Source: Leptotrichia sp. oral taxon 498
GTDB taxonomy: Bacteria; Fusobacteriota; Fusobacteriia; Fusobacteriales; Leptotrichiaceae
DNA: 64,000 nt
Assembly (NCBI RefSeq): GCF_002240055.1
Contig: NZ_CP016753.1
Coordinates: forward strand, 186,001 to 250,000
Direction of reading: 5' to 3'
Shown: in pieces, positions 5,423 to 60,435 of the stretch
Layout: every line of letters begins with the position of its first letter
How positions within the stretch are numbered: position 1 is the stretch's first letter
Notes under the pieces: generated by a model
Seen by the model: only the letters and a program-made list of their open reading frames with translations
Told to the model about the DNA's origin: nothing
The model's database searches: none
Program-made: the position numbers and the translations under genes

Positions 5423-7264
<1,842 letters not shown>

Positions 7265-9023: not shown

Positions 9024-9052
9024 TCGACTTCCATATATTTTTATTATATAAT
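9024..9052 (+). promoter_or_regulatory. Promoter of leader RNA copy A
   Basis: TCGACT, 17-base spacer, TATAAT. The same arrangement (TTGACT, 17, TACAAT) precedes the second leader copy at 10466, which supports both. Confidence 0.6.
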
Positions 9053-9166
9053 TATGTTGTAAGCAAGGAAACTTACGCTGTATATCTGTGATGTTACTGA
9101 ATGAAAGTTTAAACATTATTTAAGAACATCAGCTACAAAGAGCCACCATTTTTAGTGGTATTTTTT
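9053..9166 (+). ncRNA. Structured leader RNA with attenuator-like terminator, copy A
   Basis: A transcript of about 110 bases precedes the decayed DUF3800 gene. It shares with the leader at 10495 a conserved core (CTGTATATCTGTG and ACTGAATGAAAGTTTAA) and a 3' hairpin with CCAC/GTGG arms and a U run just before the ribosome site. Pairings visible here: GTAAG with CTTAC, and TGATGTT (from 9088) with AACATCA (to ~9131). Candidate RNA motifs found upstream of DUF3800 genes have been named DUF3800-n in comparative surveys. Whether this is one of them needs a covariance-model search. Confidence 0.6.
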
Positions 9167-9180
9167 GAAAGGATTTTTTT

Positions 9181-10465: not shown

Positions 10466-10494
10466 TTGACTTCTATATTTTTTTATTATACAAT
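10466..10494 (+). promoter_or_regulatory. Promoter of leader RNA copy B
   Basis: TTGACT, 17-base spacer, TACAAT, directly before the conserved leader. It matches the layout at 9024. Confidence 0.7.
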
Positions 10495-10601
10495 TATATT
10501 GCAGATAGGAGATTAGACTGTATATCTGTGTAACTGAATGAAAGTTTAAGTGTTATGTAAGAATACCAGCCACAGAGCCACTATTATAGTGGTATTTTTT
10601 T
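10495..10601 (+). ncRNA. Structured leader RNA with attenuator-like terminator, copy B
   Basis: It carries the same core as the leader at 9053 (CTGTATATCTGTG, AACTGAATGAAAGTTTAA) and a perfect 3' terminator CCACTA-TTA-TAGTGG followed by a U run (10578-10601). CAGAT pairs with ATCTG near the 5' end, and CTGTG with CACAG brackets the core. The terminator lies before the ribosome site of the next ORF, as in an attenuator or riboswitch, or as in an RNA antitoxin followed by partial read-through. Here the downstream genes are a small ORF and a GNAT enzyme, not DUF3800. Confidence 0.65.
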
Positions 10602-10620
10602 AATAAAAGGAGTGATTTTT

Positions 10621-56412: not shown

Positions 56413-56440
56413 AAATAAACAATATTTTGAATAATAAAAA

Positions 56441-56490
56441 AGAAGTTGTCTCAAAATGCTTAAAATTTTGAGTTCAGCTTCTATTTTTTT
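56441..56490 (+). terminator. Hairpin after murA
   Basis: AGAAG...CTTCT with inner CAAAAT/ATTTTG pairing and a T run. It may also be the end of the decayed IS1182 copy. Confidence 0.7.
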
Positions 56491-56697
56491 GTCCAAATTC
56501 AATATCCTTATCTAAAATTTCTTTTTTCAGATACTTTTCTATACAATTTTTCTCTATAGTTCTAGTAGTATTAATACCGTCAAACATGGCATATGCGATG
56601 ATTCAAGGATATTAACTCCAATATCCATAGGCAAAAACAATTGATAATTTGGAAAAAATATAGTACAATTAGTTAAATGGTTATTGTTATTTATCAT
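56491..56697 (-). pseudogene. IS1182-family transposase remnant
   Basis: From the ATG at 56697 the minus strand reads INNNNHLTNCTIFFPNYQLF then LPMDIGVNILESS, the IS1182 N-terminus. After a frame change it reads IIAYAMFDGINTTRTIEKNC, the family's helical segment. An internal deletion has removed the rest. It is flanked by IS-like end sequence and the murA hairpin. Confidence 0.7.
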
Positions 56698-56771
56698 AAT
56701 TCAATTATACCATTTTACAGAGATTTTATAGTGAAACCACTTTAAAGTAAAAATGAGAAATGTTCAGTTAA

Positions 56772-56820
56772 TTAGTTTCTGTATGGAATTATCAGTTCGA
56801 TATTAAAGGGATTTGACTAT
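56772..56820 (+). repeat. 49-bp inverted repeat, left arm
   Basis: It matches the reverse complement of 57732-57780 at 47 of 49 positions. It begins TTAGTTTCTGTATGG. The arms bracket the methyltransferase gene. Confidence 0.85.
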
Positions 56821-56901
56821 ATATAGTATCATCTGTGTAATTTAGAAAATTCATTATAAATAAATTTAGTTTGTATAATAAAAAAATTGAAAGAGAGTGC
56901 T

Positions 56902-57651
56902 ATGATAAGAACTGATAAGGAAAAATTTCTAGAAAAAATTAAAGAAAATATTGATATTGAAAACTTAAAAGGAGATGGGAAAATATTTTCATATGTAAAC
57001 AGAGATTATCTCGCAGGAGATAATAAAAAATATATGAATATGTATGATAAGTTATCATTTTGGTATGATTTTGGTGAAAAATGGATAGGATTGTTCAGAT
57101 ACGGGAATACGATTTCTGAAATGAGAAAAAATCTTATGAAACATCTGGAGTGGAGAAATGGCATTTCTGTTTTATATGTTTCTATCGGTACTGGAAAGGA
57201 TTTAAATTTTATTCCACAGAATGTTGATTTAAAATCTTTAGATTTTACAGGTATAGACATTTCCTATGGAATGTTAAAAAAATGTCATTCCATCTGGAAA
57301 AAAAGAACAAATCTTACATTAGTAAATTGCTGTGCTGAAGATTTACCTTTTAAAGACAATGTTTTTGATATTGTTTTTCATGTGGGAGGAATTAATTTTT
57401 TTACTGATAAGGCTCTAGCTATAAAAGAAATGATTCGTGTATCAAAACCTGGTTCAAAGATAATGATAGCGGATGAAACTACAGATTTTATTAAAAATCA
57501 ATATAAGAAAAGTATTTTTACAAAAAATTACTATAAAAACACAGATTTTGATTTAAGTGAAATCCAGAAATGTATACCTGAAAGTGTAAAAGAAAAGAAG
57601 ACAGATTTTTTATGGAACAACAGATTTTATTGTATTACATTCAGAAAATAG
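56902..57651 (+). CDS. Class I SAM-dependent methyltransferase
   Basis: 249 residues. The Rossmann core: motif I VLYVSIGTGKDLNFIP, FTGIDISYGMLKKCHS, then CCAEDLPFKDNVFDIVFHVG and MIRVSKPGSKIMIADETTDF. This resembles UbiE/MenG or small-molecule methyltransferases. The substrate is unknown. It is alone between two 49-bp inverted repeats, which hints at recent gain or inversion. ATG 56902 chosen; the TTG at 56887 is weaker. Confidence 0.85.
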   Translation: MIRTDKEKFLEKIKENIDIENLKGDGKIFSYVNRDYLAGDNKKYMNMYDKLSFWYDFGEKWIGLFRYGNTISEMRKNLMKHLEWRNGISVLYVSIGTGKDLNFIPQNVDLKSLDFTGIDISYGMLKKCHSIWKKRTNLTLVNCCAEDLPFKDNVFDIVFHVGGINFFTDKALAIKEMIRVSKPGSKIMIADETTDFIKNQYKKSIFTKNYYKNTDFDLSEIQKCIPESVKEKKTDFLWNNRFYCITFRK

Positions 57652-57731
57652 AGCCAGAATAGAAAAACAGCACCTTCAATATCAAATTTAAGATAGAAAG
57701 TGCTGTTTTTAAAATATCTCTTCATGTATAG

Positions 57732-57780
57732 ATAGTGAAATTCCTTTAATATCGAACTGATAATTCCATACAGAAACTAA
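57732..57780 (-). repeat. 49-bp inverted repeat, right arm
   Basis: Inverted partner of 56772-56820. The 1009-bp unit between the outer edges carries only the methyltransferase. Confidence 0.85.
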
Positions 57781-57879
57781 ATTTACCTTTTTTTATTTAT
57801 CAAAATTTTTCTAAACTAAATTTTATAAAAAAATAAAAGTCCTAAAAAAGAACTTCTATTAATTATATTTTTTTATTTT

Positions 57880-60435
57880 TTATTTTTTATTTTTTCTAAA
57901 TGAGTCAAACATATTTTTTGCATTGCTGTAGAGAACTTTTACTTCGTAAGGTTTTACATCCACTTGGATTTTTCTCTCAGAAATCGCATAATTCTCTTTT
58001 GGATTTAACTGATTTTTATAAAATCCAAACATTTTGGGAACATTTAAGTTTAGCGGATAACTGTCGGCACTGTTGTTTACCAAAACTATGATTGATTCAT
58101 TTCCCAAGGAAATTTCATAGGAAATAAAATCTGTATTTGGTTTTGGTGGCGTGTAGTCACGACCTTGATATAATTTTGCTCTTCTTGTTTCATCAGCTAA
58201 ATATGCTGCAATTTCAGTGTCAACTCTACCTTTTGTCTTTTCATCGCCATAAACCTCCAATATTCTAAGTTTTCCATTTTTAAACAGATTTTTGCGCTCT
58301 TTTCTTATTTTTAATAAACTTCTGTAATGATTTTCAATTTCTTTATTGCTCGTAACTGGATAAGAAATAAATTTTTGCACTTCATTTATTTCCACCGAAT
58401 CCGGCAAATTTCTAAACACTTTTTTATATTTACTTATGTCATCAGTTTCGTTATCATATGGATCATAATCTTCCCACAGCATAGGTTTTCTATTTCGAGG
58501 CGAATCTGATCCCCACATTCCCTTCTCATCTCCATAATAAATAATGGGAGTTGCAGGCAACATCATTTGCATTGAAACTACTCTTTTTAATTTATTTATC
58601 GCAGTTCCATCGTATAAATCAGGTCTTATGTTCAAATATTGGTTCGACTGATTATTTCTGTCGTAAACACGGTTTGTGTTTATCATTCCACTAAAAATTC
58701 TGTCTGTATCCAGTGAACCTATAAAAAGTTGTGTCATGTTAAATCTGTTAGCTGAATACTTATTATAAATTTCGTTTAATTTTGAAGCAAATTCCACTCC
58801 ATTTATACGATAATTCGGATTTGTATTTACAGTGTACTTAATTATATTATTAACAACATTGTAATCCGCCCCACTGTCGTAAACTCCATCATCTATATCT
58901 TTTGTAAAACTGTTGGAAAACTCTCCAGTTATTAATAAATCTGGCTTATATTGCTTTAAATTTTCTGTAATTTCCGCTATATATTCTTTATTTCTATCAT
59001 CATAATAAACATATCTAATTCCATCAATCCCGTCATCATAAACATTTTTCTTAAAAGTCTGGTCAGGCCCTAAAATCCATTTTTTCATTGAATTTTCAAA
59101 ATAATTTTGAACTTCCTTATTGCTCAAATCAAGCACCGTGTCTTTTAAATACCAATTTTTAAATTCTTTATTTTCTCTTGCAAAAAAAGCTCCAGAAGTC
59201 ACATCTGGCGCAACTTCCAAAACAACTTTCAAGCCTTTCTGATGCGCCTTTTTTACAAGACTTGCAAGAACTAAGTCAGAATCAGTCCAAACCCAGCTAT
59301 TTGTATTTCTCAAATCTTCCCCAAGCAAATTTTTATCAGTTGTCGGATTAAAAACTAATAAATTTAATTCTTTGTCACCGTTGACATTGTGAACAGGTGC
59401 TTTTATATCAAGCGCCTTTATTGTCCCAGTCTGCTCAATAACTCCGAAATATGGATCCACATGATTAAAGTAAATCGTGTCATATTTGTGATTTGAAAGT
59501 GAATAAAAAGGAGACGATAAAATTATATATTCCACTCCTAAATTTTTCAAATAATCCAATTTTTCTTCAACACCTTTTAAATCTCCACCATAATAACGTG
59601 TATAATTTTGCACTTCATTTAAGGCACTCTCTTCCCATTCATTTTTTTCTTCGTAATTACTGTTCCATTCATTTAATGAAAACTGAGGTTTGCTTCCATC
59701 TCCCCATTCAGCTAAAAGAAGCTCCCTTTTTGTAGTTCCCGAACGAATTTCTCCAGTTGGCGCAGAAAAGTCATCGGTTCCAAATTCATTAAAAATTGCA
59801 TCGTTGTCGACATCTCCATTTCTAAATGAATCAATATAAATTTGGTAACCAACAGAGCCTTTTGCCCAATCTGGAATCTGTGTCAATTTTTTTGAATTTG
59901 TATATTCAAACGGAATTACAGAACTTCTATTTTTTGTCAAGTTTCTTCCCATAAAATATTTTGTCTTGGCATCAGTTATTTCAAAATAATAATCTTTGAT
60001 CGTATCTGGAACTTCTGCTAAAAATGTTTCATTTCCACCGTAATTCCCAATCCCACGCATCATTTTTTTTCCATTTTTGTAAATCACTTCCACCGAATAG
60101 ACATCGTTATTTTTGGTTTTCATAAGTATTTTTACATTTTTTCCATCTTTTACACGATATTCAGAATTTTCTTCGTGTTTTAAAGAGTTTACATCTATTA
60201 TTCCGTCATTTCTCTGACTGTACTTCAAGTTTTCATTTGCACTTTTATTTTCTTGTTCGTCTATAATTTCTTCATCTATTTTTGAGCTGTCATCTATAAT
60301 TTCTTGCGTTGATTCGTCAAGATGCTCCATATTTGTATCTGCATTGTTCACTTTATCACTTTTTTCTTTTGAAAAAGAAAGAGTTGTACCAATTATAAAT
60401 AACAGAACTGTCATTTTTAATTTTAATTTGCTCAT
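57880..60435 (-). CDS. Secreted GH13 alpha-amylase-family protein, probably catalytically altered
   Basis: 851 residues. Signal peptide (MTVLLFIIGTTLSFS), an acidic linker, an N-terminal beta domain, then the GH13 barrel: PDWAKGSVGYQIYIDSFRNG, EYIILSSPFYSLSNHKYDTI, GIDGIRYVYYDDRN, LLITGEFSNSF, MTQLFIGSLDTDRIF. The Glu acid/base and the third Asp are present. The nucleophile Asp in the usual RxD is Val here (GIRYV), and the conserved His before the last Asp is Leu. Related to neopullulanase-type enzymes of the periplasm or surface. It may bind glycans rather than cut them. Confidence 0.85.
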   Translation of the reverse strand: MSKLKLKMTVLLFIIGTTLSFSKEKSDKVNNADTNMEHLDESTQEIIDDSSKIDEEIIDEQENKSANENLKYSQRNDGIIDVNSLKHEENSEYRVKDGKNVKILMKTKNNDVYSVEVIYKNGKKMMRGIGNYGGNETFLAEVPDTIKDYYFEITDAKTKYFMGRNLTKNRSSVIPFEYTNSKKLTQIPDWAKGSVGYQIYIDSFRNGDVDNDAIFNEFGTDDFSAPTGEIRSGTTKRELLLAEWGDGSKPQFSLNEWNSNYEEKNEWEESALNEVQNYTRYYGGDLKGVEEKLDYLKNLGVEYIILSSPFYSLSNHKYDTIYFNHVDPYFGVIEQTGTIKALDIKAPVHNVNGDKELNLLVFNPTTDKNLLGEDLRNTNSWVWTDSDLVLASLVKKAHQKGLKVVLEVAPDVTSGAFFARENKEFKNWYLKDTVLDLSNKEVQNYFENSMKKWILGPDQTFKKNVYDDGIDGIRYVYYDDRNKEYIAEITENLKQYKPDLLITGEFSNSFTKDIDDGVYDSGADYNVVNNIIKYTVNTNPNYRINGVEFASKLNEIYNKYSANRFNMTQLFIGSLDTDRIFSGMINTNRVYDRNNQSNQYLNIRPDLYDGTAINKLKRVVSMQMMLPATPIIYYGDEKGMWGSDSPRNRKPMLWEDYDPYDNETDDISKYKKVFRNLPDSVEINEVQKFISYPVTSNKEIENHYRSLLKIRKERKNLFKNGKLRILEVYGDEKTKGRVDTEIAAYLADETRRAKLYQGRDYTPPKPNTDFISYEISLGNESIIVLVNNSADSYPLNLNVPKMFGFYKNQLNPKENYAISERKIQVDVKPYEVKVLYSNAKNMFDSFRKNKK

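Follow-up and report, generated by a model that had tools for sequence, protein, structure and literature searches.

A methyltransferase gene between inverted arms

The window analysed here, a stretch of 64,000 nucleotides from the chromosome of Leptotrichia sp. oral taxon 498 (contig NZ_CP016753.1; genome G000 below), contains a gene for a class I SAM-dependent methyltransferase that lies between two inverted arms and to the right of an IS1182 remnant (Table 1). The arms (inverted repeat I1) are 54 nt long, identical at 51 of 54 positions (94%) and separated by 901 nt. The initial annotation had described 49-bp inverted repeats matching at 47 of 49 positions; this is correct for the stretch it considered, and the longer match is obtained when that stretch is extended. 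The ORFs and the domain matches (Methyltransf_31, 1e-14; Methyltransf_11, 1.3e-14) confirm that the arms enclose a single SAM methyltransferase gene and no recombinase or transposase. A promoter-like sequence and the terminator hairpin of the gene are both located inside the arms.

Among solved structures, those closest to the protein are generic small-molecule or lipid methyltransferases. Assignment as an arsenite or menaquinone methyltransferase was rejected, the UbiE/MenG and ArsM matches being generic and far below the curated cut-offs, as was a role as a defence-system gene, for which the only sign was a weak match (1.5e-7) to the methyltransferase portion of a single PADLOC model, reflecting the generic domain. 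No close relative of the protein was found in the genome contigs collection or in viral contigs, and plasmids and phages gave only distant methyltransferases (< 32% identical) among the matches listed. Elsewhere in the window, two members of the DUF3800-I RNA family (RF02969) lie ~1.3 kb apart on the forward strand, at 9052-9169 (49.3 bits) and 10494-10603 (89.6 bits).

Table 1. Features of the methyltransferase locus (positions in the window).
Feature	Position	Strand	Remarks
IS1182 remnant	56433-56728	-	IS end (~56440-56491) and 5' part of the transposase; other end replaced by MITE
Left TA (target dinucleotide)	56727-56728		In the IS1182 sequence GATTT-TA
Complete IS630-type MITE, left copy, TAGTGAAACC...GGGATTTGACTA	56729-56819	+	TA on each side
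Left arm, extent as initially annotated	56772-56825	+	Inner part of the left MITE
Right TA (target dinucleotide)	56820-56821		In the methyltransferase upstream sequence
Class I SAM-dependent methyltransferase, 249 aa	56902-57651	+	ATG at 56902, stop codon ends at 57651
Terminator-like hairpin I17, AAAAACAGCAC...GTGCTGTTTTT	57661-57711	+	Right edge of the unit common to loci
Right MITE, inverted, truncated	57733-57780 (right arm 57727-57780)	-	Inner end kept, outer end absent
Right junction with host intergenic DNA	57778-57900		Continuous with the cassette-free site of G007 and G009

The adjoining IS1182 remnant, also recorded initially, is verified to the left of the arms by its match to a complete copy in the same genome: positions 56595-56729 share 93% identity with the promoter-proximal end of that copy (G000:262594-262728), whose transposase matches NF033551 (IS1182) at 2.3e-99. 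Of the query sequence used in this comparison, positions 1-91 match many IS ends.

The arms belong to a dispersed repeat family with IS630-type ends

A 29-nt core of the arm has exactly two occurrences in the window, against an expectation of 0.00 from 100 shuffles, and likewise exactly two in the 2,152,181-base (2.15-Mb) genome when up to three mismatches are allowed. Outside the genus, the exact arm was found in none of 84,980 species genomes or viral contigs, collections that are perhaps without near relatives. A 20-nt piece of the arm is commoner in relatives than in reversed controls, and a query with an unrelated site of a congener (G001:187.9k) retrieved a family of ~100-bp (~90-110-bp) repeats throughout the genus. 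The consensus starts with TATAGTAAAACCNCTTTAAAACCGAACT and ends with ...AGTTTGATTTTAAAGGGATTTGAGTATA, an imperfect inverted copy of the start; the ends are of IS630/Tc1-mariner type (TATAGTAAAACC...) with TA target duplication. The initial annotation held that arms found only here would speak against its proposals. Within its own genome the exact arm is indeed confined to this locus; the family to which it belongs is abundant in sister species.

With a model built from 24 copies, ten of the 13 congeners have at least 71-106 matches per genome, the counts being lower bounds because 108 candidates were scored per genome. G014 has 41 matches and G017 seven; the 18 remaining genomes of the bacterial family have none. 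The clade of G000, G007 and G009 is nearly devoid of the family (9, 3 and 8 matches respectively), in contrast to its abundance in the other ten congeners. Independent 20-kb samples totalling 397 kb yielded eight copies; their reversed sequence yielded none. Besides the methyltransferase locus, G000 holds six strong copies. No base pairs were returned by RNAalifold for a consensus RNA structure of the repeat, and single folds were unremarkable.

Transposases of the DDE_3 (IS630) type are present in nine of the 13 congeners. In G001 an IS630 element of ~0.93 kb at 199.7 kb is bounded by the terminal inverted repeat (TIR) TATAGTAAAACCTATTTAAAACTGAACT, which is identical to the MITE end at 25 of 28 positions. 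A clean comparison of a filled and an empty site is available as one pair, for a family copy outside the window: G012 reads CTGTTT-TA-(TAGTAAAA...GAGTA)-TA-TAATT where the orthologous site of G001 reads CTGTATTATAATT, a duplication of TA. This G012 copy (L258:4838-4953) is inserted at the 3' end of a gene and provides the stop codon of that gene.

When both strands of the whole window were scanned with the 28-nt end, the top three of 127,944 positions all fell at the arm locus [56821(-), 23/28; 57731(+), 21/28; 56727(+), 21/28; next best in the window, 19]. The locus thus holds three IS630-type ends, two belonging to the left MITE and one being the inner end of the right MITE. The repeated element on the left exceeds the arm, starting at ~56727, and its inverted counterpart on the right is limited to the arm-sized part. 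A model that excluded the window copy recovered the left MITE with nhmmer at 2.5e-7 (56724-56823), and the R1 model matched both of its strands, with 30.2 and 21.7 bits; against the family, the window copy has a modest score of 26.6 bits. With nhmmer the right MITE gave 14.5 bits over model positions 81-112.

The features that define a MITE are present in this family. The repeat is short, noncoding and dispersed (91 bp in the left copy, with many family copies), the window copy agrees with the TIR consensus at each of its ends, the TIRs are common to the G001 IS630 element as an autonomous relative, and the TA target-site duplication is clean for the G012 copy. The arms can consequently be regarded, from their sequence, as copies of a non-autonomous MITE family of the IS630/Tc1-mariner type. 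Several copies lie immediately 5' of start codons and have TATA-rich ends, as would be expected if the ~100-bp repeats were a common promoter or regulatory element and not a MITE. This is very improbable, as other copies are downstream of genes or between terminators, the G012 copy creates a new stop codon at a site that is empty with TA duplication in its ortholog, and the repeat ends match those of the IS630 element.

The unit is an insertion and its gene has spread horizontally

In the sister species G009 and G007, whose murA genes are 95% and 93% identical to that of the window, the gap between murA and the amylase gene is < 200 bp and lacks the methyltransferase unit; the methyltransferase gene is found elsewhere in G007 and is absent from G009. 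The right junction is precise at ~57778-57780, and at least ~75 bp of the intergenic region has been replaced, so that no target duplication of the unit can be read. The target-site duplication that had been suggested as a check is accordingly not visible for the whole unit, host DNA having been lost at the insertions in both G000 and G001.

The G001 unit is collinear with that of the window from -175 to +855 relative to the gene, 93% identical and situated at another locus. The order IS1182 end, MITE and gene is common to both, in the same orientation; G001 is the one other species with this arrangement, each species being represented by one genome. The sites orthologous to the G001 unit are empty in G002, G004 and G005, and ~1 kb of host sequence, with most of a regulator gene, has given way to the unit. 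At this locus (L047, G001:1560000-1573000, ~5890-7040) a small flavin-type gene was lost when the unit arrived, and an HTH-type regulator beside xseA was cut short (names assigned by eye). At the right edge of the G001 unit, in the position corresponding to the right arm, there is a TIR-like stretch, TATATAGAAGGTAACCCCCCTTTAATATC.

Comparison of the flanks places the left MITE between two ancestral contexts. The complete IS1182 copy of the same genome reads GAGATTTTATCTCGG at the corresponding point, with the TA intact. Copies of the gene in other species that are free of the MITE read TTTATATAGTATC, where the window has GACTA-TA-TATAGTATC; in both the window and G001 the MITE sits exactly at the TA of TTTATATAGTATC. 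One TA flank is therefore derived from IS1182 and the other from the methyltransferase upstream sequence. With respect to the gene, the left MITE is just upstream of the core promoter and the right half copy just downstream of the terminator.

Methyltransferase copies with 90-98% identity are found in nine close genomes, at several loci unrelated to one another. The identity of the methyltransferase is far above that of murA (98 against 80% in G011, 96 against 81% in G001, and 91 against 76% in G017, which belongs to another genus); the single gene has moved horizontally. In G006 (L054, ~5717-6750) ends of a second subtype of IS630-type TIR (TATACTAAACCCC...) stand on both sides of the gene: to its left is half an element, to its right a full MITE of ~120 bp. 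No MITE pair surrounds the gene at the G002/G004/G008, G017, G007/G011 and G020 loci, so MITEs are not required for its spread. In G008, G004 and G002 (L050, L051 and L052) the unit is flanked, at ~-176 to +839 relative to the gene, by a 28-nt imperfect direct repeat (CATTTAATATTGTAATTTAG..., 23-25 of 28 positions) that may have been left by its insertion. Flanking direct repeats were rejected as a general target duplication of the gene unit, being absent elsewhere.

Assembly and present state of the unit

The arrangement is very probably that of a horizontally spread single-methyltransferase unit composed of two facing MITE copies of one subtype, complete on the left and half on the right, and an IS1182 remnant. 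Because its two TA flanks come from different contexts, the left MITE may be the product of recombination between a MITE in IS1182 and a MITE upstream of the gene. The MITE-bracketed segment would then have entered the genome by transfer, through recombination at MITE or IS copies or by the action of an IS630 transposase in trans. In the present genome the unit is most likely an immobile relic, since the outer end of the right MITE has been lost and no cognate transposase was found in G000, where the only DDE_3 match belongs to the other TIR subtype. The MITE-like passenger unit or transposon relic of the initial annotation was thus right in essence: the arms are of IS630 type and the gene is a mobile insertion absent at this site from the closest relatives.

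How the right arm arose bears on this account. It might have originated when one half of the left MITE was duplicated locally in inverted form, during DNA repair or template switching and with no transposition on the right side. The centre common to both arms, TTAGTTTCTGTATGGAATTATCAG, has no other occurrence in the genome; it is specific to the subtype and deviates from the family consensus, for which reason the right arm may be a local duplicate and not an independent insertion. The arms are also more alike (94%) than are the left arm and its G001 counterpart (~81%). However, the independent G001 locus has its TIR-like stretch at the corresponding right-hand position, and two of the three differences of the right arm are shared with the left copy of G001. 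On this evidence local duplication is rather unlikely. It is unlikely that MITE, gene and inverted MITE form a functional composite transposon moved as one by an IS630 transposase in trans. Facing MITE ends do flank the gene in G000, G001 has a MITE together with a TIR-like right end, another IS630-type subtype brackets the gene in G006, and relatives hold IS630 elements with matching TIRs; yet the unit has no TA duplication, its right outer end is missing (truncation at 57780), host DNA was deleted at both insertion sites, and several loci of the gene are without MITEs.

The initial annotation had also suggested an invertible switch. The arms would then serve as recombination sites for flipping the methyltransferase gene or a promoter. 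Near-perfect inverted arms around one gene would suit such a device, but it is unsupported and extremely improbable here: the unit encodes no invertase, no recognisable recombinase-like ORF for a site-specific invertase beside the arms exists among the ORFs of 52-62 kb, and the arms come from a dispersed MITE family with DDE-transposon ends, the right copy being truncated. The promoter and terminator of the gene moreover lie within the arms, and the orientation is the same in G001, the one other species with the arrangement.

A broader proposal, that the methyltransferase is a nomadic gene repeatedly carried by bracketing MITE subtypes (A in G000 and G001, B in G006), with the MITE pair acting as a trans-mobilized device for gene capture, is speculative and quite improbable; the preferred reading remains the spread unit with its two facing MITE copies and IS1182 debris.

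Relation to known systems and significance

The family resembles RUP of pneumococcus, a 107-bp MITE present in 108 copies that has the ends of IS630-Spn1, targets TA and often inserts into IS elements (PMC2229807): it is ~100 bp long, has ~100 copies per genome, IS630-like TIRs, a TA target and no ORF, and the left MITE abuts the IS1182 remnant at a TA just as RUP inserts into IS elements. It differs from RUP in sequence and phylum, and here a pair brackets a gene. Similarity is also seen to the Correia repeat enclosed elements (CREE/NEMIS) of Neisseria, inverted-repeat MITEs with > 100 copies and a terminal TA that lie upstream of genes (PMC2649163). The present family shares the inverted-repeat form, the terminal TA and copies upstream of genes; unlike CREE, with its non-coding core, a whole gene lies between two MITEs here.

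As in mobile insertion cassettes and MITE-associated resistance genes, a passenger sits between inverted repeats without a transposase and would depend on an autonomous relative. The qnrS2 cassette of pAC3 has intact 22-bp inverted repeats and is plasmid-borne (PMC5444012), whereas the present unit is chromosomal and has lost its outer right end. Since the unit has neither two intact outer ends nor a target duplication of its whole length, it is not classed as a mobile insertion cassette. Among the open-access papers listed for Leptotrichia we found no description of the MITE family, a weak indication that it is new, though MITEs of this kind are already known.

Viewed as a switch or as a new system, the locus is ordinary. 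Its interest lies in an abundant MITE family, found across an oral bacterial genus and linked to a partner IS630 element, and in the remains of MITEs and IS elements that border a single gene moving horizontally. The spread of genes with the help of MITEs can thereby be put to the test in Fusobacteriota.
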